In this document: one piece after another, positions 5,507 through 41,953 of the stretch
How the letters are laid out: the number at the start of each line of letters is the position of its first letter
Numbering within the stretch: position 1 is the stretch's first letter
From: an uncultured Bacilli bacterium
GTDB lineage: Bacteria; Bacillota_I; Bacilli_A; RF39; UBA660
NCBI GenBank assembly: GCA_947629405.1
Contig: CANRDL010000005.1
Location: 1 to 43,981, forward strand
Direction of reading: 5' to 3'
DNA length: 43,981 bases
The notes under the pieces: model-generated
Database searches by the model: none
What the model saw: only the letters and a program-made list of their open reading frames with translations
What the model was told of the DNA's origin: nothing
Program-made: the position numbers and the translations under genes

Positions 5507-5530
5507 AAAAAAGTGATTATAAATCACTTT
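5507..5530 (-). terminator. Intrinsic terminator after the lipoprotein gene
   Basis: Nine-bp perfect stem AAAGTGATT/AATCACTTT (5510-5518 with 5522-5530) with a 3-nt loop and a six-T run. It overlaps the stop of the lipoprotein gene and separates it from the Panacea gene. Confidence 0.8.
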
Positions 5531-6629
5531 ATTTTTCAGCAAGTACAGCCGTTGAATTATTAATAGATGCTGCAACACTTAACATTTCTTCGTTACTTAA
5601 ATTACTACTTGTTAAATAATAATCTTTATTATTTGAAGTCCATGTTAAGGAAGAAGAGGACAAAGAGGCAACTGCATCATTTAAAATTTCAGGATCTCCA
5701 TAAACTGGAATAACTTCAAATTCAGAATTTATTGCTGCTGTTTCTTCCACTAATATAAATGGCTTACTTCCGGTAAATGTTAATATTGTTCTAGAACCTT
5801 CATCCGTATTAATTACATCTTTTGATGTTAAATAAGTCTCAGTTGGCAGATATAGTGGATAAGTTATATCATCGGTAGCACTGGTAGTTTTATCAGTTTC
5901 ATTATTATTACAGCAATTATTATCAGTTTCTGAGTTACTAGCATTACAACAATTTTCATCATCTTTATCTTTACTAGAAGAAGGATTTTGATCAGTTGTT
6001 TTGCAACAATTTTCATCAACTATAGAACTTAATTCAAAATAGTCATCATCAGTTGAAGCATTTAAATCCAATTTATTAACTTTTAATTTTATTTTTAAAT
6101 TATCATTTTTATCATATACTTGAACTTCTTTTAAATTCCCTTTTTTATCTACTACAATTTTTTCATATTTCAAACTAGGATTGTTAGGATAATCTACTGT
6201 GGCTTTTATATAAAATAAATTATCTTTTTTCTTAGATTCTACTTTTTGATCATTTTTAATATCATTTTTTAAATTGTGAAGTAAGTAAGATTGTGAAGAA
6301 TTATCTGGCCATTCACTTTGAAATTTAAAACTTTTATTAAGTGAAGGCGTAACAACATAAACACCATCTGAATTTTTAAGTATGACTTGCTCATGTTCGT
6401 TAATTTTATTAACTAAATTTACTCTTATTTTTTTACCATTATCATATCTAACATCAATATTATATTTAAATGTGTCATCATTGTTAATAATTTCCATAGT
6501 TCCTTTTAAATAATAAGTGTTTGTTTTATTAACTTTCTTAATAAATTCGTTACTTATATTTTTTTCTGTTGTTTTACCACAACCACTCAGTAAAAATAAT
6601 GCCAAAAATAGGCAAAAGATTTTTTTCAT
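5529..6629 (-). CDS. Lipoprotein with LolA-like N-terminal domain and Cys-Cys-rich linker
   Basis: A 366-aa secreted lipoprotein: a hydrophobic signal followed by the lipobox LLSGC (lipidated Cys17), so it is a substrate of the Lgt encoded nearby. Residues about 25-200 alternate beta strands (YYLKGTMEI, YNIDVRYDNGKKIRV, VYVVTP...KYEKIVVDKKGNL) like LolA/GerS/YdcC-type outer-face lipoproteins. About 205-250 is an Asn/Asp/Ser-rich linker with three Cys-Cys pairs (ENCCK, ENCCN, NNCCN). The C-terminal part, TYLTSKDVINTDEGSRTILTF...LVEE, resembles DUF4367-type domains. Such proteins act in envelope or spore functions in Bacillota, but the role here is unknown. SD AGGGGATG fits. A 13-bp inverted repeat lies upstream. 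Confidence 0.8.
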   Translation of the reverse strand: MKKIFCLFLALFLLSGCGKTTEKNISNEFIKKVNKTNTYYLKGTMEIINNDDTFKYNIDVRYDNGKKIRVNLVNKINEHEQVILKNSDGVYVVTPSLNKSFKFQSEWPDNSSQSYLLHNLKNDIKNDQKVESKKKDNLFYIKATVDYPNNPSLKYEKIVVDKKGNLKEVQVYDKNDNLKIKLKVNKLDLNASTDDDYFELSSIVDENCCKTTDQNPSSSKDKDDENCCNASNSETDNNCCNNNETDKTTSATDDITYPLYLPTETYLTSKDVINTDEGSRTILTFTGSKPFILVEETAAINSEFEVIPVYGDPEILNDAVASLSSSSLTWTSNNKDYYLTSSNLSNEEMLSVAASINNSTAVLAEK

Positions 6630-13112: not shown

Positions 13113-16100
13113 TTATTTTTTATATAAAATATATTGACCTACTGATGAAACATCATTTAAATCTATTCCTGCTGGATTGATTAAATCTAATTGTTCTTTC
13201 CATTCTGAATACTTTTCATTATTTAAATATTTTGGAGAATTTAAATATATATAACTTATAATTGAATAATCTGTTATATTAACAATACCATCCTTATTTA
13301 TATCATATAATTGTTCTTTTTCTCCTTTACTTAATGCTTCGCTAGTTGTTGGTTCTGTTATTGTTACATTTATAGTTTTTTGACTATTACCGGATGCTTT
13401 TGAAGTAATTTTTAATGTCGTTGTACCAACGTTTACACCATAAATCATTCCATTTTCATCTACTGTTGCTATACTTTCATCAGCTGTTTCCCATGTTACT
13501 TCTCTATTTGTTACTGTTCCTGGTAATACTATTGCTACTACTTCTGTTGATCTTCCTTTATTTATTTTTATTTCTTCGTTATTTACTATTATTTTCTTTA
13601 CTGTATTTTTCTCTTTTTCGATAAGTTCTGTATAATCTGTTGCTGGTTTTTGGACAATTGGTGCTGAGCTTGAAGGTGTTGGTGTAGTGGTTTGAGTTAT
13701 AACTGCAAATCCATCTACTGTTGTATTTGTCTTTGTATTATAATTTGGTTTTACTGAATATCTTCTTATTTCTCCTGTTTTATAATAAATCTCTATTCTA
13801 CCTATTCTTTCATATGCTGCTTTTTGTAACAATGGTGTTGATTCTGCACTTGTTCCTTGCGCATATGTAGTATATTCTTTACCATTATTTTTATTATTTG
13901 TATACCAAATCCATTTACTTATTTTACTTGGATCTGCTATTTTTATCTTGTAAGTTGCCAAAGTATCAGTTATTGATACTAATTCAATACTAAATTCATT
14001 ATAAATTGCATTAGTTTTAGAATTATAATTTGGCATTACTATCCATTCTTTTATATTTCCATTAGTATAATATTTTGTTATTCTTCCAACTCTATTATAG
14101 CTTGTTTTATCTAAAGTAGGTGTTGAACTTGTTCTTGTACCTTGATTAAACAATGTATAATTTTTTCCATTATCTTTATTATTTGTTGACCATATCCATG
14201 ATTTTAAATTAGTATTTTTCATTCCTATTGTATATTGTATTCGATTATTATTTGGATATTTAATACTTAAACTAAAATCATTTGTATAATCAGTACTTTG
14301 AGCAATTTTTGGAACATTAGTTATTGAACTTGCTGCTGTTGCTGCAGCTGTTCCCTGAATAGATATATTAAATGTATATGTTTTTGTTGCTCCGTTTTCG
14401 GCTTTTACTGTTATTGCTATTTTTTTGGAATTTGTAATAGTATGCTCTGCTTGATTATTTACCATTCCTGATGGTGAAGTTATTACTGCTCCTTTATTTG
14501 TTGGATATGCTACTATTTCGAATTTTTTTGTTCCACTTGGTAAAATTATATTATATGATGTTGTATTTTTATTAAATGTTTTATCCCAAATTGTTTTAAT
14601 TGTTGTTCCAGTTTTAGTTGTATTATCATATCCACTAGTTTGATATATTGTAAATGACTTTAATGTTGCATCACTACTTTTAGTTGTCGGCTTAGCTGCT
14701 CTTTTTATTTTTATAGTATAATCTTTATTTTTCTTTCCGTTTTCTGATTTTACATTTATTGTTTCTGTTTTTGTCTTTCCAGCTTCTACATTCCATGTTA
14801 CTACTTTATCTTTTTTTAATCCAGCTGGTTTTGTTATTGTTGATTTTGGATTTTTAGTTACTACATTTACTTTTACTTTTGTTACTCCATTTGCTACTGT
14901 GGCACTATAAGTATTTCCACTCTTACTTACGTCAAAACTAGCTCCTGTACTAGCATTTTTTACTGTTATAGCACTAATTGCTGTGTCAGATTTATCAGTT
15001 GTTGTAGCCGGTTTAGTTGTAGTGGAATTTACCGTTATACCAGATGTAGTTGAAGCTACTGCAGTTGTTGCTTTACTACTTGCTACATTGCTACTTGTTG
15101 CTTTTTTATTTATAACTTCTACATTTACTACTTTTTTAACACTTGTCTTTCCTTTTGCAGTAACTGTTATTTTGGCTTTACCAACTTTTTTACCAGTAAA
15201 GTTTCCTTTTGAATCTACAGTCACAATTTTTGTATTGTTTGATTTAAATGATACATTTTTATTTGTTGCATTTGTTGGCTTAATTGTATAGTTTATCTTT
15301 TTACTTTTTCCAACTTCAACCATTCTATCTGTATCTTTTATTGTTATACTTGTAGGTTTTACATTCTTTGAAGAAGTTGCTTTTTTGGAAGAACTTACTT
15401 GTTTTGATGAACTAGTTTGATTAACTACAGTGGTAGTATTTGTAGTAGTATTCTTTTTTATAATACTAATTTTTTCTGTATAATATGTAGCTTGATGGTT
15501 TTTATTGGCAATTTTAATAGTAGATGTTCCTACTTTTTTACCGGTAATTTTACAACCATTACTTATCGCTGTTATTGTTACATTAGAATTGTTTGCTGAA
15601 CAAACAATAGCAGTACTTGAAGTTATATTTGTTGAAGATCCTTTTTGAATAGTACTATTAGGATCAGTATAATAAAATTTATAATTTTTAGTTGTTGTAT
15701 TCTTTGATTTATTCTTTGATTTATTATTTGATGTATTTTTAGATGTTCCACTATTATTAGTAGTATTAGTAGAAGCTGCTGGTGTTAAAGTTACAGAACA
15801 ACTAGCTGTTTTAGTATTTCCATATTTTGTAGTATATGTAGCCTTAACTTTAACTGTAGCACTTGTATTTTTATTTAATGTTAAAGTATTACCGGAAATG
15901 GATGCAGAAGTTGATTCAATACCATAACTACAACCATCAACCAACACAGGATTAGATTTGCCATAACAATCAATATGAGCTGTAGAAGGCTTTTTATATT
16001 TTTTTGTAAAACGTGAATTTACATAATCAAATCCGGCTGGGCAAGCATAATAGGAATTACCCCACGTATCATTCTTACCTGTAAAAATTGATTTAGTTTT

Positions 16101-16412
16101 ATAAAGATCTGTATAATATCTTTTACATGATAATATAGCCTTATTAGAACTAGTTTTAGTACATGTTACGGAAATTGAATTCAATTTACTATTATATGGT
16201 GTTTTTCCAGCATACGGAGATGTAATTGAAGCATTAAAATTTGTGTCGCTTAAATTAGTATTATTAGTAAAAAACATAATACCTACACCAATAGCAATTC
16301 CTACAATTAAAGTTATTCCTACAATTAGGAATGGTAACTTAAAATGAGTTAAATTATTTATTTTTTTACTCTTATTATTAGTTTTTTTATTAGTATTTTT
16401 CTTTTTATTCAC
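13113..16412 (-). CDS. Giant anchored surface protein with Big_2, cadherin-like, W-repeat and dockerin-like domains
   Basis: About 1099 aa. A basic N-terminus is followed by one membrane anchor (about 28-50, VGITLIVGIAIGVGI), identical in core to that of the 991-aa paralogue. Outside it are a Cys-rich region (about 60-200), Asn/Ser/Lys linkers, a Big-like domain, a Big_2 domain near 360-440, cadherin-like modules (SSDATLKSFTIYQT...ENGATKTYTFNI), two copies of a Trp-containing repeat, a Big_2 domain and a dockerin-like C-terminus (about 1032-1099) with DINKDGIVNITD. I choose GTG at 16412: SD GGAGAG is 8 nt from it but only 2 nt from GTG 16421. Probable role is surface adhesion or assembly. Confidence 0.82.
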   Translation of the reverse strand: MNKKKNTNKKTNNKSKKINNLTHFKLPFLIVGITLIVGIAIGVGIMFFTNNTNLSDTNFNASITSPYAGKTPYNSKLNSISVTCTKTSSNKAILSCKRYYTDLYKTKSIFTGKNDTWGNSYYACPAGFDYVNSRFTKKYKKPSTAHIDCYGKSNPVLVDGCSYGIESTSASISGNTLTLNKNTSATVKVKATYTTKYGNTKTASCSVTLTPAASTNTTNNSGTSKNTSNNKSKNKSKNTTTKNYKFYYTDPNSTIQKGSSTNITSSTAIVCSANNSNVTITAISNGCKITGKKVGTSTIKIANKNHQATYYTEKISIIKKNTTTNTTTVVNQTSSSKQVSSSKKATSSKNVKPTSITIKDTDRMVEVGKSKKINYTIKPTNATNKNVSFKSNNTKIVTVDSKGNFTGKKVGKAKITVTAKGKTSVKKVVNVEVINKKATSSNVASSKATTAVASTTSGITVNSTTTKPATTTDKSDTAISAITVKNASTGASFDVSKSGNTYSATVANGVTKVKVNVVTKNPKSTITKPAGLKKDKVVTWNVEAGKTKTETINVKSENGKKNKDYTIKIKRAAKPTTKSSDATLKSFTIYQTSGYDNTTKTGTTIKTIWDKTFNKNTTSYNIILPSGTKKFEIVAYPTNKGAVITSPSGMVNNQAEHTITNSKKIAITVKAENGATKTYTFNISIQGTAAATAASSITNVPKIAQSTDYTNDFSLSIKYPNNNRIQYTIGMKNTNLKSWIWSTNNKDNGKNYTLFNQGTRTSSTPTLDKTSYNRVGRITKYYTNGNIKEWIVMPNYNSKTNAIYNEFSIELVSITDTLATYKIKIADPSKISKWIWYTNNKNNGKEYTTYAQGTSAESTPLLQKAAYERIGRIEIYYKTGEIRRYSVKPNYNTKTNTTVDGFAVITQTTTPTPSSSAPIVQKPATDYTELIEKEKNTVKKIIVNNEEIKINKGRSTEVVAIVLPGTVTNREVTWETADESIATVDENGMIYGVNVGTTTLKITSKASGNSQKTINVTITEPTTSEALSKGEKEQLYDINKDGIVNITDYSIISYIYLNSPKYLNNEKYSEWKEQLDLINPAGIDLNDVSSVGQYILYKK
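13433..13615. repeat. 183-bp segment shared with the neighbouring paralogue (copy 1)
   Basis: By eye, 182 of 183 bases match 16949-17131 in the 991-aa gene; the difference at 13577 is silent. It encodes the central part of the C-terminal Big_2 domain, while the flanks have diverged. Such a local near-identity suggests recent gene conversion or strong constraint. Confidence 0.85.
13695..14290 (-). repeat. Tandem protein repeat with Trp core (two copies, about 95 residues each)
   Basis: Within the 1099-aa protein two adjacent stretches share the pattern W-I-W-x-T-N-N-K-x-N-G-K, then QGT, STP, Y-x-R-x-G-R-I, YY, G-x-I, and PNYN-x-KTN. They are diverged at DNA level but clearly homologous. I do not recognise the family; it looks like a small beta domain. 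Confidence 0.75.
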
Positions 16413-16452
16413 AAAAATCACTCTCCAAAATATCGTTACCTATTATAAGTAA

Positions 16453-16482
16453 ATTTTATCACTGACTATTATATAATGTCAA
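16453..16482 (-). promoter_or_regulatory. Promoter of the 1099-aa surface protein gene
   Basis: Minus strand -35 TTGACA (16477-16482), an 18-nt spacer and -10 TAAAAT (16453-16458), about 40 nt ahead of the GTG start. The gene upstream has its own terminator, so the two giant genes are transcribed separately. Confidence 0.65.
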
Positions 16483-16577
16483 ACTTTTTTCGACAATTCT
16501 CAACATTTTAAAAATAAATATCTATGTTTAAAATGTTTAATTTTAACGATATATAAAACCAACATATAATTTTCATT

Positions 16578-16612
16578 AAAAAAAATTGTAAAATTATTTA
16601 AATTTTACAATT
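16578..16612 (-). terminator. Intrinsic terminator after the 991-aa surface gene
   Basis: Twelve-bp perfect stem AATTGTAAAATT/AATTTTACAATT (16584-16595 with 16601-16612), a 5-nt loop and eight T on the minus strand, overlapping the stop codon. Confidence 0.85.
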
Positions 16613-19586
16613 ATTCTTTATATAAAATATAATGTCCTATTGAAGAAATATCATTTAAATCTATTCCCGCAGGATTAATTAAGTTTAATTGATTTTTCCA
16701 TTCTAAATATTTTTCATTATTTAGATATTGTGTATTATTTAAAAATATATTTGATGCTATTGCGTAATCAGTTCCATTAATAACATTATCTTTATTTATA
16801 TCATATAACTTTTCTTTATCAATAGTATTATTGATATTGTTAATATTATTAGTATTATTAACTGTTGATTCATTTATTGTCACATCTATAGTCTCTTGTA
16901 CTTCAGGATCTGAAACAGATGTGGCAATAATAGTAGTTGTCCCAGCACTTACACCATAAATCATTCCATTTTCATCTACTGTTGCTATACTTTCATCAGC
17001 TGTTTCCCATGTTACTTCTCTATTTGTTACTGTTCCTGGTAATACTATTGCTACTACTTCTGTTGATCTTCCTTTATTTATTTTTATTTCTTCATTATTT
17101 ACTATTATTTTCTTTACTGTATTTTTCTCTTCTTCTATTTCTTCTAGGCTAATTTCATCATCATTTTCATCTTCTTCAGGTTCAACATAATCTCCGTCGC
17201 TATCATTCTCTTCTTCAGGTTCAACATAATCTCCGTCGCCATCATTCTCTTCTTCAGGCTCAATATAATCTCCGTCGCCATCATTTCCTTCTTCTTCAGG
17301 TTCGATATACTCTCCGTCGTCATCATTTTTGTCATCAATTGTACTACTTAAACTACCTTTAACTGTCATATTAAATGTATAATCTTTTATTGTTCCATTT
17401 TCAGCTTTTACTGCTATTTTTATTGTTTTTTTATTAGTTATTGTGTATTTTGCTTGATTATTTTTCATTCCATTCGGTTTATTTATTACTGCTCCATTAT
17501 CATTTGGATACGCAACAATTTCAAAGTCTTTTGTTCCACTTGGAAGTGTTATATTATATGTCGTCTTATTTTTATTAAATGTTTTATCCCAATCACCTTT
17601 TATTTCTTTTCCTGTTTTAGTTATCTTATTATAACCGGCTGTTTTATATATCTTAACTGATTTTAAAGTGGCATCACTACTCTTAGTTTTTGGTTTTGCT
17701 TCTCTTGTTATTTTTAATGTATATTGATTTTTATTGTTTCCGTTTTCTGATTTTACTATTATTTTTACTGTTTTTGTCTTTCCAGCTTCTAATTTCCATG
17801 TTACTGCTTTATCGCCTTTTAAACCTGCTGGTTCAGTTATTGTTGCCTTCGGATTTTTAGTTACTACATTTACTTTTACTTGTGATATAGAATTTGCTAC
17901 TGTTGTACTATATGTATCATTATTAGAATTATATTTTACTGTAGCACTTGCACCAGTGATTGCATCCTTTACGGTTAACGCACTAATTTTAGCATTTCCT
18001 TTTCCTACGGATGATGCCGCTTTACTTGATGATACTTTACTTGATGATACTTTTGGTTTTGAAGATGCCGTTGCTTTAGTGCCTTTAATATTAATGGTAT
18101 AAGTTTTTGTAGTTCCATTTTCAGCTTGAATTTTTAAACTTATTGTTTTTGTTTTATTTGCTTCGATTGTATAAGTTTCATTTAAATCTCTTAACCCTGA
18201 TGGTGTTAAAACTGTTGCATATTGATTATTAAGTTTTACTTCTAAAGTCTTTTTACCAGCTTCAACACTCACATCATAACCATATTTTTCTTTTACAATG
18301 CTGACATTTTTGTTACCAACTTTTAAAGATTTTAAAGTTGCATCACTACTTTTTACTCTTACAGTATCTGTTGTGTATTTTGTTGCTGAAGTACCACTTG
18401 TAGAAGTTATTTTAAAGGTATAAGTTTTTGTAGTTCCATTTTCAGCCGTTACTATTATAGTTGGAGTCCTTGTTTCTCCAGCTTTAAAACCATATTCTGC
18501 TTGATTATTTTTCATTGCATAAGGATAGCTTATTATAGCACCATTATCATTTGGATACGCTACTAATTTTATAGAATTTACTCCGCTTGGTAATTTTATA
18601 TTATAAGATATTGTATTTTTATTAAAACTTTTATCCCAAGATGCATTAACTTCTGTACCTGTTTTTGTTGTTGCATTATAACCGGCTGTTTTATATATCT
18701 TAACTGATTTTAAAGTGGCATCACTACTCTTAGTTTTTGGTTTTGCTTCTCTTGTTATTTTTAATGTATATTGATTTTTATTGTTTCCGTTTTCTGATTT
18801 TACTATTATTTTTACTGTTTTTGTCTTTCCAGCTTCTAATTTCCATGTTACTGCTTTATCGCCTTTTAAACCTGCTGGTTCAGTTATTGTTGCCTTCGGA
18901 TTTTTAGTTACTACATTTACTTTTACTTGTGATATAGAATTTGCTACTGTTGTACTATATGTTTCATTATTAGAATTATATTTTACTGTAGCACTTGCAC
19001 CAGTGATTGCATCCTTTACGGTTAAATCACTGATTTTTGTATTTCCTTTTCCTACTGATGATGATGTTACTTTACTTGATGACGCTTTTGGTTTGCTAGT
19101 TGATGATGCTTTACTTGATGATGTTTTTGGTTTTGAAGATGTCGTTGCTTTAGCTCTTGTCATTACTAATTCATAATCTTGATGATTTTTCTTATTCGCT
19201 GAATATACTCTAATTTTTTTCTTTTTTGGTTCTCCAGCTTTTAAATCATATTCTTGAACTTTATCTTTTAATCCACTTGGCTCCGATATAGTTGCTTTAT
19301 TATTTGCAGTTGTTATTTTTATTGTTACTTTTGATACATTGTTTGCAACATTTACATTATATGTATTTCCACTTTTTTTTACATTGTTTGTAGAACCATT
19401 GGCAGTTAAACTTTTTATTGTAGCATTCCCATTTCCAGCGTTTGCCTCATAATTAGTATTGCTTAATTTAGTAGGTGAGGATAAAAAAATAATACCTACA
19501 CCTATAGCAATTCCTACTATTAAAGTTATTCCTACAATCAATAATGGTAATTTAAAATGATTTGTTTTTTTATTATTTATTTTCAT
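16611..19586 (-). CDS. Giant anchored surface protein with repeated cadherin-like modules, acidic repeats, Big_2 and dockerin-like end
   Basis: About 991 aa, a paralogue of the next gene. A membrane anchor (about 15-37) is followed by alternating cadherin-like modules: a KIS(D/A)LTVKDAITGAS type and an SSDATLKSVKIYKTAGYN type with ENGTTKTYTFKI ends, joined by Ser/Lys linkers. One 351-bp block occurs twice. Four acidic DGDYxEPEEE units follow, then a Big_2 domain nearly identical to the paralogue's and a dockerin-like C-terminus with DINKDNVINGTD and LINPAGIDLNDISSIGHYIL. ATG at 19586 has the strong SD AAGGAG 7 nt upstream; the more upstream in-frame start at 19646 lacks one and overlaps the promoter. 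Likely a surface fibre or adhesin. Confidence 0.83.
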   Translation of the reverse strand: MKINNKKTNHFKLPLLIVGITLIVGIAIGVGIIFLSSPTKLSNTNYEANAGNGNATIKSLTANGSTNNVKKSGNTYNVNVANNVSKVTIKITTANNKATISEPSGLKDKVQEYDLKAGEPKKKKIRVYSANKKNHQDYELVMTRAKATTSSKPKTSSSKASSTSKPKASSSKVTSSSVGKGNTKISDLTVKDAITGASATVKYNSNNETYSTTVANSISQVKVNVVTKNPKATITEPAGLKGDKAVTWKLEAGKTKTVKIIVKSENGNNKNQYTLKITREAKPKTKSSDATLKSVKIYKTAGYNATTKTGTEVNASWDKSFNKNTISYNIKLPSGVNSIKLVAYPNDNGAIISYPYAMKNNQAEYGFKAGETRTPTIIVTAENGTTKTYTFKITSTSGTSATKYTTDTVRVKSSDATLKSLKVGNKNVSIVKEKYGYDVSVEAGKKTLEVKLNNQYATVLTPSGLRDLNETYTIEANKTKTISLKIQAENGTTKTYTINIKGTKATASSKPKVSSSKVSSSKAASSVGKGNAKISALTVKDAITGASATVKYNSNNDTYSTTVANSISQVKVNVVTKNPKATITEPAGLKGDKAVTWKLEAGKTKTVKIIVKSENGNNKNQYTLKITREAKPKTKSSDATLKSVKIYKTAGYNKITKTGKEIKGDWDKTFNKNKTTYNITLPSGTKDFEIVAYPNDNGAVINKPNGMKNNQAKYTITNKKTIKIAVKAENGTIKDYTFNMTVKGSLSSTIDDKNDDDGEYIEPEEEGNDGDGDYIEPEEENDGDGDYVEPEEENDSDGDYVEPEEDENDDEISLEEIEEEKNTVKKIIVNNEEIKINKGRSTEVVAIVLPGTVTNREVTWETADESIATVDENGMIYGVSAGTTTIIATSVSDPEVQETIDVTINESTVNNTNNINNINNTIDKEKLYDINKDNVINGTDYAIASNIFLNNTQYLNNEKYLEWKNQLNLINPAGIDLNDISSIGHYILYKE
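16949..17131. repeat. 183-bp segment shared with the neighbouring paralogue (copy 2)
   Basis: The counterpart of 13433-13615, encoding the same Big_2 core (KKIIVNNEEIKINKGRS and on to ENGMIYGV). The identity ends sharply at both sides. Confidence 0.85.
17172..17330. repeat. Four tandem acidic repeats (39-42 nt units)
   Basis: Units start at 17172, 17211, 17250 and 17292 and encode variants of NDGDGDYVEPEEE in the 991-aa protein. Three periods of 39 nt and one of 42 nt are visible. The strongly acidic, regularly spaced Asp/Glu suggests a flexible or Ca-binding linker before the Big_2/dockerin-like end. Confidence 0.9.
17628..17978. repeat. 351-bp internal direct repeat, copy 1
   Basis: Matches 18675-19025 at 350 of 351 positions by eye; the single difference (17916 against 18963) changes Asp to Glu. 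It encodes the end of one cadherin-like module and the start of the next, so the repeat border is not a domain border. Confidence 0.92.
18675..19025. repeat. 351-bp internal direct repeat, copy 2
   Basis: Second copy, 1047 bp (349 codons) away and in the same frame. Recombination between the copies would add or remove 349 residues without breaking the frame. Confidence 0.92.
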
Positions 19587-19630
19587 AAAATATCTCCTTA
19601 AGAAATACATATCGTACTTATTATACTTAC

Positions 19631-19659
19631 ATAATATCATTAGCAAATAGAAAGTTCAA
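19631..19659 (-). promoter_or_regulatory. Promoter of the 991-aa surface protein gene
   Basis: Minus strand -35 TTGAAC (19654-19659), a 17-nt spacer and -10 TATTAT (19631-19636), about 45 nt ahead of the ATG. The remaining sequence 19660-19787 is AT-rich and I see no other feature in it. Confidence 0.65.
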
Positions 19660-25881: not shown

Positions 25882-27579
25882 TTATTTTATTAATAATTTA
25901 TTATTTTTAAATAAATTATTTTTTAAAATAGCAATTTCTTTATCCGAAAGAAAGGAATTATTAGTAATTATTTGTAATAAAAGATCATTATTGTCAATTT
26001 GTAAAATTAAATTGTTTGCAATTGATAAAACTTTTAATCTAGAAATAGTTATTCCTTCTATATCGTAAGTAAAATCATCAATTTTATAATCATTTTCTAA
26101 TTTTTCAACAATTTTGTTATTAAATAGCTTATCATTAATTATAAAACTTCTTGAAAAATTTACATTTTTTGTATCTTTAATTATACATTCATCTAATTCT
26201 TCATCACTTAAATAAAACTTATTACCAGTAAGGATACATTCTTTTAAATTACCTTTTTTATTATATATATTAAAACCAATTTGTTTAGCAATTTTTATTC
26301 TTTTTATAATATTTTCATCTAAAATATTTATAAATTCCGGATGATTTATTAAATAAGAATACATATTTATTTCAATTAAACTATCTATTAAATATACTTT
26401 TCCGTAAACATTTTTATTAATTTTTAATTTATATAACCCACATATTTCCATAATTTTTTGGACATCTTCTGGTTCTAAAAGCAAAATATCTAAATCTTTA
26501 AAATCATAATTTATAGTTTCTAATAAATTCATATTTTTTAATAATTTTTTATAACTAGGTGTCAAACCATTATCATAGACTAATTTTTCTATCATAAATT
26601 CTCCATGATTTTTTATGAATTCCACTGTTAAATGTCCTTTTTCAATATAATGGATAATATTTAGTATAATTTTTTCATTAGAATTTACCAACATGTTAAC
26701 ACCAAAATTAGTATATAACTCATTTTTAAAAGGACTTTTAACAATTAAATTAAGTAAACTAGAAATATTATGAATATCAAAGTATTTTTTTATTATATTT
26801 TTTTGATTATCATCAAAATTATTAAAATTTAAATTATATTTTAAAAATATTTTATCTATTTCATAAATATCATTATCTATAAATTTTTTATTATGTTCGG
26901 AAAATTTCAAATAATAATTTTGATTTAATAAAATTATAGCGCGTAATATTTCATATTCAGCTTCCGGAGAAATATTTTTAAATAAATTCAAATCTATATC
27001 AATAACATCTTTAGGGCCATAACCCAAAATTCTAAATAGTTTATTTATTGCTGCCCATTCTTTTTTTATTTTACTATCATGTTTGTTTTTTTCGTTCTTT
27101 AAAAGCATATATCGTTTTTTTATTTTTTCTTTCTTTTCTTCAATATTTATTTTATTTAAAATTTCTTTAGTAACAAAATTAACACCTTCTGAATATATCG
27201 CTTCTGCCCGTATGTAATCTAAAAAAACATCAAGAGCTTCTTCCAGAAATGGATATTTAATTAGAATTTTTTCTTTAACACTTTGAAAAATTTCTGATGC
27301 AGTTTTAGTATGTTTCAGTATTTCAACAATATATTCTTCAAACATGGTATAAAATTCATTAATTATTTCAATTATTTCATCAAAAGATATATCATTTATA
27401 TAAGTGCGAGAGTATAAAATCAAAAATGCTTTTCTATCAATTTTCATAAATTTTTTAATATCAGAGGAATTAATTTCAGTTTCAAAATTAGCAAAAAATA
27501 ATAATTCTTTTTGATCCTTATATTTAGATTCAAGTAAATCATCAAGATAATTATCTAAAAATTTTTTTAATTTTTCCAT
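25882..27579 (-). CDS. Uncharacterised helical protein, second gene of an overlapping pair
   Basis: I do not recognise this 565-aa protein. It has no signal peptide, membrane segment or catalytic motif. It is rich in Ile, Leu, Asn and Lys with many short predicted helices, including LDNYLDDLLESKYKDQKELL near the N-terminus and a charged helix around 175-200 (EEKKEKIKKRYMLLKNEKN). I place the start at ATG 27579, preceded by GGTGAAG; an upstream in-frame start at 27648 lies deep inside the preceding gene. Even so it overlaps that gene by 29 nt, implying translational coupling, so the two products probably work together. Confidence 0.7.
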   Translation of the reverse strand: MEKLKKFLDNYLDDLLESKYKDQKELLFFANFETEINSSDIKKFMKIDRKAFLILYSRTYINDISFDEIIEIINEFYTMFEEYIVEILKHTKTASEIFQSVKEKILIKYPFLEEALDVFLDYIRAEAIYSEGVNFVTKEILNKINIEEKKEKIKKRYMLLKNEKNKHDSKIKKEWAAINKLFRILGYGPKDVIDIDLNLFKNISPEAEYEILRAIILLNQNYYLKFSEHNKKFIDNDIYEIDKIFLKYNLNFNNFDDNQKNIIKKYFDIHNISSLLNLIVKSPFKNELYTNFGVNMLVNSNEKIILNIIHYIEKGHLTVEFIKNHGEFMIEKLVYDNGLTPSYKKLLKNMNLLETINYDFKDLDILLLEPEDVQKIMEICGLYKLKINKNVYGKVYLIDSLIEINMYSYLINHPEFINILDENIIKRIKIAKQIGFNIYNKKGNLKECILTGNKFYLSDEELDECIIKDTKNVNFSRSFIINDKLFNNKIVEKLENDYKIDDFTYDIEGITISRLKVLSIANNLILQIDNNDLLLQIITNNSFLSDKEIAILKNNLFKNNKLLIK

Positions 27580-28561
27580 AGTCTTCACCGCCAATAAAAG
27601 ATTTGAGTAATTCATGAAAATTTGTTTCGTTTTCCATAAAAGAATCATCTTGAATATTTTTTAGAATATCATTTTTTTGCATTTCAAAAATATCAGAGAT
27701 ATGTTTTAAATAATTTGCATAATCTTTAGCATTATCACTTTTTTTAATAAAACAAGTTAAAATCATATAAACATCTTGAGAAAGTTGGATATATAAAACT
27801 CTTGATTGATAAAATTTAACTTCCATAATATTAGTTAACTTTTTATTATCTGATCTACCTATTCTTTTTTTATTTATAAAGGTATTATTTTCTATAGATT
27901 TAATTAAATGCTCAAAAGATGGATAAAAATCTTGTGGTATATCTTTAAAATCTTTTTCAATTATATAGTTACCTGATAAAGATTTTAAATAAATAACTTT
28001 ATTAATTTTTTTACTTTCTTTGGTATGAACAATTGTTTTTTCATTTTGAATCCTTTTAATATAATTAATTAATTCAAGAATGTAATTATATTCTTCATCA
28101 AAATCAGTCTCATTTGATTCTTTTTTCATATTATGAATTAATGTAAGATCTTTATATAAAGCAATTAAAATATTATAAATTTCATCATTATTTATTCTTT
28201 TTAAAAACAATTCTAAATCAGTTTTATTCATTTTTTTAATTTCTTCAATTGATTTAGATAATTTAATATTTGTTTTAGATATATTTGGTTTCGAATTTTC
28301 ATTATAAGTTGTTTGTGAATCTTTTTCATTTAAAGGATTTATTTTTATATTTTTATAATAATCGTCTATTTTATTTTTTAAATTTTTTTCTTTATTAGTT
28401 AAACTTAAATTTGATAAATATATTTTTTCAATTAATGGTTTTATTAAATTATAATCTATTCCTAAACTTCTAACATATTCATCAATTGCCTCAATATCAA
28501 TATAATTATTTTCTGATATATTTTCTTCAACGACATCTTTTAATGCTTTAATATTTCCCAT
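27551..28561 (-). CDS. Uncharacterised protein, first gene of an overlapping pair
   Basis: A 336-aa soluble protein of unknown family. An N-terminal helical part (VVEENISENNYIDIEAIDEYVRSLG) is followed by a charged, probably disordered stretch (about 70-110). Past about residue 185 is a beta-rich domain, VIYLKSLSGNYIIEKDF...EVKFYQSRVLYIQLSQDVYMILTCFIKK. The last 29 nt overlap the 565-aa gene. The pair stands between rel and uvrA; SD GAAGGG is well placed. No function can be assigned. Confidence 0.7.
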   Translation of the reverse strand: MGNIKALKDVVEENISENNYIDIEAIDEYVRSLGIDYNLIKPLIEKIYLSNLSLTNKEKNLKNKIDDYYKNIKINPLNEKDSQTTYNENSKPNISKTNIKLSKSIEEIKKMNKTDLELFLKRINNDEIYNILIALYKDLTLIHNMKKESNETDFDEEYNYILELINYIKRIQNEKTIVHTKESKKINKVIYLKSLSGNYIIEKDFKDIPQDFYPSFEHLIKSIENNTFINKKRIGRSDNKKLTNIMEVKFYQSRVLYIQLSQDVYMILTCFIKKSDNAKDYANYLKHISDIFEMQKNDILKNIQDDSFMENETNFHELLKSFIGGEDYGKIKKIFR

Positions 28562-28662: not shown

Positions 28663-30078
28663 TTAATTTAAATTGTCTTTTATTTTATTTTTAGCTAAAT
28701 AAGTTTTGGCATTTTTCATTAATTTTTTAGAAGCTGTAGGAGACTCTTTTACAATAATTTTAACCCTATCTCCACTTTTTAAATTATAATCTAATGAGAC
28801 TTCTTTACCATTAACTAAAGCTCCCGAAATATTATTACCAATTTCACTATGAATTTTATAGGCAAAATCAACTGGTGTAGCATTTTTAGGTAATTCGATT
28901 ATATCTCCTTTAGGAGTATGAACATAAATATTACTTGTTAAAATTTCCGCTTTTACTTTAGAAATAAATATTTTATTATCATTAATAGATTCATTTAAAA
29001 ATTTAATTGAATCAGGTAAACCAAATTTTTCTTGAAAAACAGTTTGTAAATTAGCATTGTCTTCATAAAAAGCACAAATACCTAAATTAGCAAATCTATT
29101 CATTTCATCAGTTTTAATTTGACATTGAACCATTTTTTCATCAGGGGCAAAAACTTTGGTATGTAAAGACTGATATAAATTAGTTTTTGGTTGAGCAATA
29201 TAATCAGTTATTTTATAAGGAGTATATAAACTATGAATTAAGCCTAAACTCTTATAACAATCTAAAAACTCTTTAACAATAATTTTTAATATTCTCAAAT
29301 TAGTTATATCAGCAAATTTTTTACCATTTTGAAGTTGTTTATAAATTCCATATATATTCTTAAAATCAATTTTAATTTCATTTGGAATATTATAATCTTT
29401 TAATTTAGAAGAAATTTCTGATAACATTTCTTCTAAAATTTTTTTATTTTTAAAAGAACTATTTAAAAGTTTACTTTCAATATCATTATAATCTTTAGGT
29501 TTTAAATACTTTAAAGATAAATCCTCTAATTTATCTTTTAAAACATAAATTCCTAAACTTTTGGCAAGGGGGACGAAAAGTCCTAAGGTTTCCACTGCTT
29601 TTTCTTTTTGTTTGTAAGGGGTTTGATATTCAAGAGTTTGCATATTATTAAGTCTATCAGATAATTTAACAATAATTGATCTTACATCAATGTTTAAACT
29701 ATTAAGTAATTTTCTATTGTTAAAATCTTTTAAGTCCTTTTCTGATTTAAAAGTATCTATATATTTAATTTTTGTTACTCCATCAACAATTTTAGCAACA
29801 TCTTCATTAAATTCCTCTTTAAGTTCATCAAATGTAGCATCTGTATCTTCTAAGGTATCGTGTAACAAAGCAGCACATATAGTATCACAATCGGCATGTA
29901 TTTTAACTAAATTGTAAGCCGTATTTAAAGGATGAACAATATATGGCTCTCCACTTTTGCGATACTGACCATCATGCTTATTTTCCGCAAAAAGATAGGC
30001 TTTGATTAATTTTTTTAATTCTGTTTCATTTTCATTATATTCTTTAAATTTAGTAGTTAAATCAGCAAATGTAATCAT
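28663..30078 (-). CDS. rel: RelA/SpoT homologue, short form; hydrolase intact, synthetase motif altered
   Basis: A 471-aa cytoplasmic (p)ppGpp enzyme. The N-terminal HD hydrolase domain is intact: the HDGQYRKSGEPYIVHP block, LLHDTLEDT (His73, Asp74) and SDRLNNMQTL. The synthetase domain keeps DYIAQPKTNLYQSLHT, but the family's E-(V/I)-Q-I-R-T reads Q-C-Q-I-K-T here, with Gln318 in place of the catalytic Glu, and the G-loop Arg-Pro-Lys is not conserved. A TGS domain (about 385-450, IYVHTPKGDIIELPKNATPV) follows; the usual helical, zinc-finger and ACT domains are absent (long Rel is about 730 aa). ATG at 30078 follows AAAAGGAGG. A leader peptide and attenuator lie upstream. Confidence 0.92.
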   Translation of the reverse strand: MITFADLTTKFKEYNENETELKKLIKAYLFAENKHDGQYRKSGEPYIVHPLNTAYNLVKIHADCDTICAALLHDTLEDTDATFDELKEEFNEDVAKIVDGVTKIKYIDTFKSEKDLKDFNNRKLLNSLNIDVRSIIVKLSDRLNNMQTLEYQTPYKQKEKAVETLGLFVPLAKSLGIYVLKDKLEDLSLKYLKPKDYNDIESKLLNSSFKNKKILEEMLSEISSKLKDYNIPNEIKIDFKNIYGIYKQLQNGKKFADITNLRILKIIVKEFLDCYKSLGLIHSLYTPYKITDYIAQPKTNLYQSLHTKVFAPDEKMVQCQIKTDEMNRFANLGICAFYEDNANLQTVFQEKFGLPDSIKFLNESINDNKIFISKVKAEILTSNIYVHTPKGDIIELPKNATPVDFAYKIHSEIGNNISGALVNGKEVSLDYNLKSGDRVKIIVKESPTASKKLMKNAKTYLAKNKIKDNLN

Positions 30079-30098
30079 ATTTGACCTCCTTTTAATAC

Positions 30099-30129
30099 AA
30101 AAAAACAACAAACAAAAATCAGTTTGCTG
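30099..30129 (-). terminator. Attenuator terminator between the leader peptide and rel
   Basis: Minus strand stem CAGCAAAC/GTTTGTTG (30122-30129 with 30106-30113, one G-T pair), an 8-nt loop and seven T. It lies in the 5' leader of rel, after the rel promoter and before the rel SD, so it can stop transcription before the gene. The stop codon of the leader ORF lies in the loop. Confidence 0.75.
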
Positions 30130-30172
30130 TCCTAATTAATTTTTTTAGACAAGAAAATAACATTTTTACCAT
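30119..30172 (-). CDS. Rel leader peptide, 17 aa
   Basis: A short ORF encoding MVKMLFSCLKKLIRTAN. It has an excellent SD (AGGAGG, 6 nt before the ATG), lies about 20 nt downstream of a strong promoter, and its last codons run into the 5' arm of the attenuator hairpin, with the TGA in its loop. A translating ribosome would therefore cover the 5' arm and prevent the terminator. There is no run of one amino acid as in amino-acid biosynthesis leaders, so the sensed signal is unknown; general translation state or ribosome-targeting stress is possible. Confidence 0.65.
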   Translation of the reverse strand: MVKMLFSCLKKLIRTAN

Positions 30173-30198
30173 AATGTACCTCCTGAAATATTTATTAA

Positions 30199-30227
30199 AT
30201 AATAATTCATTTAGAATAAATTGTCAA
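30199..30227 (-). promoter_or_regulatory. Promoter of the rel leader
   Basis: Minus strand -35 TTGACA (30222-30227), a 17-nt spacer and -10 TATTAT (30199-30204). It fits the main sigma-factor consensus closely and reads into the leader peptide, attenuator and rel. Confidence 0.8.
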
Positions 30228-41471: not shown

Positions 41472-41639
41472 ATATTCATGATTTCTTATTTTTAATACTA
41501 ACTGGACATTTTCAAAATTACTAACTTCATTTGGACCTTCAAATACAAAATCATTATTTGGAGTTCGATTAATAACTTTGGCAGTAATAGTATTACCAGC
41601 ATAATTATATTTAACTTTTATAAAATTATGAAAAAATAT
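41454..41639 (-). pseudogene. Orphan C-terminal reading frame without a start
   Basis: An open frame of 61 codons ending at TAA 41454-41456, with no ATG, GTG or TTG near its beginning; it opens right after a TAA. The product reads KVKYNYAGNTITAKVINRT and ends LKIRNHEYVIDLK, with regular beta-strand character, so it looks like the remnant C-terminus of a lost gene. It overlaps the end of the radical-SAM fragment in another frame. Confidence 0.45.
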
Positions 41640-41953
41640 TTATTATTTTTAATTGATTTTGTATAAGAAGAATTTTGAATCATATTATATACAGTTTTCG
41701 AATCTTTTTTAAATTTGTTTATTATTTCAATATATTTTCTAAAAAAATGAAGCCCTGCCATCATAGGTTCTCCACCATGCCAACTAACAATTAAATTATC
41801 AGTTAAATCAAAAGCTTCTTTTATTATTTTTTCTAAAGTACTTTCATTTAAAATATTAAATTGTTTACTTTTAAAAGGGGCAGCATAACAGTAACTACAA
41901 TTTAAATTGCAATGATTTCCAACAGGTTTAATTTGCAATGTTAATTCTTTCAT
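41618..41953 (-). pseudogene. Truncated radical-SAM (anSME-like) gene, N-terminal fragment
   Basis: A 111-aa frame that begins as a radical-SAM/SPASM maturase: IKPVGNHCNLNCSYCYA with the C-x3-C-x2-C iron-sulfur motif (Cys15, 19, 22), and SWHGGEPMMAGLHFF with the GGEP SAM-binding box. Anaerobic sulfatase-maturating enzymes are about 370-410 aa with a C-terminal SPASM domain; here the match stops near residue 95 (VYNMIQ) and ends in SIKNNKYFFIIL. The SAM barrel is incomplete, so the product should be inactive. It starts 12 nt after the ABC-F stop, inside the segment bracketed by the 92-bp repeats, which fits truncation by a rearrangement. Confidence 0.8.

Follow-up and report, generated by a model that had tools for sequence, protein, structure and literature searches.

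In E. coli pyrBI, the leader open reading frame (ORF) overlaps the terminator, and a ribosome that closely follows the polymerase prevents termination (as cited in PMC4824070). The pyrBI leader reads UTP through pausing of the polymerase at U-rich sites. Attenuators of the trp, his, and ilv type turn on genes for biosynthesis or uptake when an amino acid is in short supply. Most accounts of ppGpp control center on the allosteric switching that Rel undergoes on the ribosome.

The effect of a ribosome on a nearby terminator has been studied in E. coli. When the distance between a stop codon and the terminator that follows it was shortened from 28 to 5 bp, termination fell from about 90% to below 10%, and beyond about 27 nt the ribosome no longer suppressed the terminator (PMC4824070). 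In the pil1 leader of S. gallolyticus, leader stops located in the terminator raise transcription, and removal of the leader start lowers it (PMC3894217). In mycobacteria, the peptides encoded by polycysteine leaders have codons for a single amino acid (Canestrari 2020, cited in PMC13236596).

Here we describe a leader located ahead of an RSH gene in an uncultured Bacilli bacterium. On balance, we favor reading it as an attenuator that makes transcription of the gene for a stand-alone (p)ppGpp hydrolase depend on translation. A search of the open-licence literature brought up no previously described attenuator for an RSH gene, which agrees with the remark in the initial annotation that no such leader was known for rel genes.

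Organization of the locus

The window is the whole stretch of DNA that was analyzed, 43,981 nt of contig CANRDL010000005.1 (assembly GCA_947629405.1), and all of the features described below lie on its minus strand. The short RSH gene (28663-30078) starts with an ATG at 30078. Upstream of its leader intergenic region lies a gene for a short-chain dehydrogenase. The region itself contains a -35 box, TTGACA (30222-30227), which reads TTGAC[AT] in 52 of 60 homologous leaders, and, after a 17-nt spacer, a -10 box, TATTAT (30199-30204), likewise read both in the sequence and in the homologous leaders. These are followed by a Shine-Dalgarno (SD) sequence, AGGAGG (30179-30184), and by a leader ORF (uORF) of 17 codons plus TGA (30119-30172) that encodes the peptide MVKMLFSCLKKLIRTAN and has counterparts in about 60 relatives.

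The last three codons of the uORF are also the 5' arm of a predicted intrinsic terminator (30105-30130), and the TGA lies in the hairpin loop. The arms ACAGCAAAC (30130-30122) and GTTTGTTGT (30113-30105) form 9 bp, including one G-U pair, with a folding energy of -9.6 kcal/mol; the hairpin had been recognized before, but was counted as 8 bp. A T-rich tract (30098-30104) completes the terminator, and the SD sequence of the RSH gene, again AGGAGG, follows at 30085-30090. From these coordinates, a leader transcript of about 90-100 nt is predicted.

The promoter, the 17-codon ORF, the terminator, and the ribosome-binding site of the next gene, all listed in the initial annotation, are therefore present, and their arrangement is rare by chance. 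The intergenic region was shuffled 2000 times with its dinucleotides preserved. A comparable terminator appeared in 10 of the shuffles, an SD-preceded ORF in 37, and the promoter in 1, while the combined geometry of ORF and terminator appeared in 0/2000. As a genomic background, 20 stretches of the window's genome (L188-L207; 444 kb, 222 genes) were sampled. The leader is the sole clean case of a uORF joined to a terminator in that sample, and the other loose matches mostly correspond to internal starts within longer genes, from which the 3' end of the gene is read. Three further features, namely a hairpin over the uORF start site, positioned Cys codons, and the hydrolase-only look of the gene, were absent from the initial annotation.

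Some other genes on the same strand of the window may be mentioned. Directly 3' of the short RSH gene are two genes (25882-27648 and 27551-28561) that overlap each other by ~100 bases and have no Pfam match. Two very large proteins of a surface type, with long repeated stretches that are near-identical, are encoded at 13113-19646; their C-terminal segments are alike and resemble dockerin repeats (YDINKD...). A lipoprotein-like protein (5529-6629) contains an unusual stretch rich in Cys-Cys, ENCCNASNSETDNNCCNNN, and a radical-SAM maturase-like ORF of just 111 aa (41618-41953) appears to be truncated or frame-shifted.

The short RSH protein

The gene behind the leader had been called rel. Its product is indeed an RSH protein, but it is a second, shorter RSH paralogue and not the housekeeping full-length Rel. 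By domain search and alignment, the 471-aa protein consists of an HD domain, a degenerate RelA_SpoT synthetase domain, and a TGS domain. These HD hydrolase, synthetase-like, and TGS domains are common to full-length Rel and SpoT-type RSH proteins, from which the short clade differs by the lack of the C-terminal regulatory domains. The full-length Rel of the window's genome (about 720 aa) is encoded on another contig, without such a leader. Many genomes of the same family have a short paralogue beside the full-length Rel. In the sampled genomes of other families of the class, the proteins are almost only full-length, and a scan of genome contigs also matched almost only full-length Rel.

A second difference from full-length Rel and SpoT-type proteins is found in the synthetase domain. 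In 59/59 leadered short RSH proteins, the Glu of the E-x-Q-I-R-T motif is aligned with Gln. This Glu matches E323, one of the catalytic residues of Rel_Seq (PMC7983052). More synthetase positions are altered in the leadered proteins, and the HD residues, including HDxxED, are kept. With the synthetase Glu lost and the HD site retained, the short RSH is probably a ppGpp hydrolase only. Because the gene looks like a hydrolase-only paralogue, the earlier proposal that the leader sets the (p)ppGpp metabolism of the organism is reduced to a more limited one, in which the leader controls a single enzyme that is probably degradative.

In the two species that represent the window's genus, the HDxxED motif of the full-length Rel is replaced by HETINH (L002, G000:C12:11176-12543; L074, G001:C1:3527-4897); other Rel proteins have HDxxED at this position. 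This replacement suggests that the full-length Rel of the genus is hydrolase-dead and synthetase-only, and is paired with a hydrolase-only short RSH, so that synthesis and hydrolysis seem to be split between two proteins.

Conservation of the leader in the family

The leader is present in about 85 relatives, all members of one large family of uncultured, small-genome Bacilli. The complete array of promoter, SD-preceded uORF, terminator, and RSH start is mostly confined to one large clade of short RSH proteins. The order of uORF, terminator, and RSH gene was found in about 60 leaders of a first set, mostly from distinct genera, and again in a held-out set of 24 leaders, which were fetched later, were unused in forming the hypotheses, and were restricted to loci with a uORF and a terminator found, seven miscalled or near-identical ones having been removed beforehand. 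Four recurring features, i.e., the stop in the terminator arm, the start-site hairpin P1, the gap between P1 and the terminator, and the Cys codons, repeat in the 24 held-out leaders.

Conservation of peptide and hairpin in relatives had been named as a check on the initial annotation. The array and the hairpin geometry do recur across the family, but the peptide is unconserved. uORF peptides are completely different even between two species of the window's genus, and the leader sequences are almost unalignable, with 23 similar pairs out of 1711. An arrest peptide of the TnaC or ErmCL type, or any other functional peptide, was rejected on these grounds. The frame of the uORF is kept open, compared with 12-14% stop codons in the other frames.

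Geometry is the conserved element. Despite uORF lengths of 13-48 codons across about 60 relatives, the last base of the stop codon lies at a median of 11 nt inside the 5' arm of the terminator (10.5 nt in the held-out set, n=24), and the stop is within -36 to +12 nt of this arm in nearly all of 61 leaders. A leader ORF with a ribosome-binding site between promoter and terminator, and a stop codon inside or within masking distance of the terminator, are features of terminator-masking attenuators, and both are found here.

Overlap of a stop codon with a terminator was dropped as a stand-alone proof, as the same is seen in ordinary genes of the window's genome. In the 20 background stretches and the window, 47% of the terminators of 45 ordinary genes begin no later than the stop codon. 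The stop is at or inside the terminator arm in about 48/61 leaders versus 21/45 ordinary genes, which is a moderate difference. In B. subtilis, such an overlap is taken as a sign of uncoupled ("runaway") transcription, with the polymerase outrunning the ribosomes (PMC7858274), and by extension the present lineage may not couple the two. If ribosomes lag, a ribosome would often be absent as the leader terminator forms; a short distance between promoter and terminator, or polymerase pausing, could let the first ribosome keep up.

These observations allow for a passive leader. The uORF would then be an ordinary small gene, or nothing more than a translated stretch, that ends in its own terminator; this terminator would be weak and leak constantly into the hydrolase gene, and translation would have no regulatory effect. 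The frequent overlap in ordinary genes leaves this explanation some weight, but we consider it unlikely. A functional small protein is improbable given that the peptides are unconserved, and the stop position is shared by ORFs of very different length. In addition, a passive leader would need neither P1 at a fixed distance from the terminator nor Cys codons in frame, yet all of these are conserved and recur in the held-out set.

Leaderless short RSH genes also exist. Several were found among the relatives, including some in the second fetched set, and point to loss of the element in parts of the family. In L253, L254, L256, L261, and others, the promoter ahead of the short RSH gene is kept and the uORF and terminator are lost, which provides a natural comparison set.

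A hairpin over the uORF start

In the predicted folding, the SD sequence and start codon of the uORF pair with a segment near the uORF end to form the hairpin P1. In the window, the 5' strand of P1 (30173-30185) extends from the SD up to the ATG (CAGGAGG, ACATT), and the 3' strand (30150-30164) lies within the uORF (AATGT, TTTCTTG). The window's own P1 is modest, with 12 bp including G-U pairs and a z of -0.70. Pairing of the 5' strand is strong across the family: the segment from the uORF SD to just before the terminator has a fold z of -1.79 ± 0.18 versus shuffles, compared with -0.03 at the rel starts of the same short RSH genes and -0.01 at full-length rel starts.

The two strands also fit each other. 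Cognate pairing amounts to -14.4 kcal/mol versus -11.6 kcal/mol with swapped partners (p = 4e-7), and better pairing within than between leaders points to coordinated change. The 3' strand ends at a median of 6 nt ahead of the terminator in spite of a loop that ranges from about 11 to 96 nt. The held-out leaders (n=24) gave a fold z of -1.74 ± 0.30 versus 0.01 at rel starts, cognate pairing with p = 6e-5, and a gap of 6.5 nt. A motif that recurs in the family, TTCATGC..CCTTT, is accounted for as the complement of the SD plus AUG in P1. A pairing between the uORF and the rel start site as a means of regulating the latter was rejected, since cognate pairs were no better than swapped ones (p = 0.10).

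A structure conserved as well as P1 might instead bind a regulator or ligand, such as a protein or, in the manner of a riboswitch, a small molecule, and the uORF would then be of little importance. An Rfam search returned no relevant match to a known riboswitch or T-box, and P1 does not look like a binding pocket, as its loop varies and the only sequence core conserved in it is the stretch complementary to the SD and start. This explanation is therefore very improbable.

A pairing of UUGUC with GACAG had been proposed as an antiterminator. This 5-bp pairing can be drawn in the window, but it is not conserved. Complementarity between the upstream leader and the 5' arm of the terminator is in no excess over shuffles (z +0.23 ± 0.12), and cognate pairing is weaker than pairing with swapped arms. 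The mutually exclusive antiterminator pairing of a trp-type attenuator was rejected on the same evidence, and classical attenuation by an alternative hairpin is hardly credible. With no conserved antiterminator, the natural agent able to disrupt the terminator would be a ribosome translating the uORF.

Cys codons ahead of the terminator

In trp-type attenuators, codons for a particular amino acid are enriched at a set place in the leader, and such an enrichment is found here for Cys. At 14-44 nt upstream of the terminator, Cys codons make up 11.6% in frame versus 4.5% out of frame (p = 1e-7). They are concentrated at about 15-45 nt before the terminator, with the highest values at 16-44 nt and a peak of 20% at 28-33 nt, and Cys is the sole amino acid strongly raised versus both the rest of the uORF and the other frames. 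The held-out set showed the same pattern (24/250 in frame vs 12/494 out of frame, p = 4e-5). Collapsing the leaders to 33 clusters left the enrichment in place (p = 7e-4), as did collapsing them to 20 (p = 0.014), but it faded at 13 or fewer clusters. By codon position, the single Cys codon of the window's uORF, TGT (30149-30151), is 21 nt ahead of the 5' arm.

The leader may thus be Cys-specific, reading charged tRNA-Cys first and general translation capacity only secondarily. This would be a sub-case of translation-dependent attenuation and not exclusive of it. The fixed place of the Cys codons and their enrichment against both controls argue for it, as does the metabolism of the family. cysK, which encodes cysteine synthase, is absent in 33/37 sampled family genomes, including the window's own, which makes it plausible that cysteine is taken up from outside and in limiting supply. 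A search of the window's draft genome found neither cysE nor cysK; this draft is 88.7% complete, so the absence there is only suggestive.

Other observations weaken the case for cysteine as the signal. Ser is also raised versus the other frames, 18/59 leaders have no Cys in the 14-44 nt interval, and the window has one. The P1 strand complementary to the SD and AUG is rich in pyrimidines and could contribute part of the signal. To some extent the Cys codons could be a side effect of this strand, but their enrichment, which is restricted to the P1 3' strand, is frame-specific there (10.6% in frame vs 3.3-3.6% out of frame). Overall, we regard a dedicated Cys signal as possible but somewhat doubtful.

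Proposed mechanism

For the translation-dependent attenuator that we favor, we infer that both the terminator and the uORF are active in the cell. RNA polymerase would start at the strong promoter and produce a short leader, the uORF of which runs into the 5' arm of the terminator. A ribosome that loads early would reach the uORF stop while the terminator forms and cover the 5' arm, which would result in read-through into the hydrolase gene. When no ribosome arrives in time, P1 would shut the uORF start, the terminator would form, and no hydrolase would be made; P1 would presumably bar late ribosomes, so that only early loading counts. A ribosome stalled upstream, typically where the Cys codons lie, 15-45 nt ahead of the terminator, would be too far back to block it. 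The peak of Cys codons at 28-33 nt is close to the ~27-nt limit of masking in the E. coli study, which is suggestive at most.

Constrained folding is consistent with this scheme. With an assumed ribosome footprint and the stalled state placed at the first Cys of the 14-44 nt interval, the terminator forms with a computed (not measured) probability of 0.91 both on ribosome-free RNA and when the ribosome is stalled at Cys, and of 0.10 when the ribosome occupies the stop; in the last state the probability is <0.3 in 53/59 leaders. Both this calculation and the geometry fit the earlier suggestion that the terminator is blocked by a ribosome that has reached the leader stop.

The predicted response is that good initiation and a good supply of aminoacyl-tRNA turn the hydrolase on and failing translation turns it off. 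With the hydrolase off, ppGpp from full-length Rel could accumulate. The cell would then retain the enzyme that switches off the alarm only as long as protein synthesis is going well. In a broader and more tentative form, the self-closing leader ORF may sample whether a pioneer ribosome loads and passes the Cys codons and then permit synthesis of the ppGpp hydrolase. The stringent response would be coupled to translation from the degradation side, with a sign opposite to that of biosynthetic attenuators. Given the HETINH Rel of the window's genus, ppGpp removal there could depend largely on the leader.

If hydrolase synthesis is conditional on completed translation, this would represent a second, RNA-level input to ppGpp control. 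The leader also bears on the question of whether ribosome-dependent attenuation works in Bacilli that are thought to run transcription ahead of translation. The roughly 85 diverged leaders offer a natural family in which terminator masking, start self-sequestration, and positioned Cys codons can be separated.

Comparison with known attenuators

Attenuators of the trp, his, and ilv type and the mycobacterial polycysteine leaders have codons for a single amino acid ahead of a terminator, as in the present leader. In contrast to the trp, his, and ilv type, no antiterminator was found here, and the predicted sign is opposite, as starvation would turn the hydrolase off. The vmlR and bmrCD leaders of B. 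subtilis are likewise examples of ribosome-dependent attenuation in a Gram-positive leader, but they are induced by antibiotics and their targets are resistance factors (PMC9226507, PMC4191407).

pyrBI shares with the present leader an ORF that overlaps the terminator, while the reading of UTP is a feature of pyrBI. The pil1 leader likewise has an ORF that ends in or next to an intrinsic terminator, and its translation melts the terminator and raises the next gene; the length of the pil1 ORF varies by repeat slippage (phase variation), and pili are the output under control (PMC3894217). The present leader has no such repeats. Judged by its sequence, it would work most like pil1 and pyrBI and differ from them in the self-sequestration of its start, its positioned Cys codons, and its target, a putative ppGpp hydrolase.
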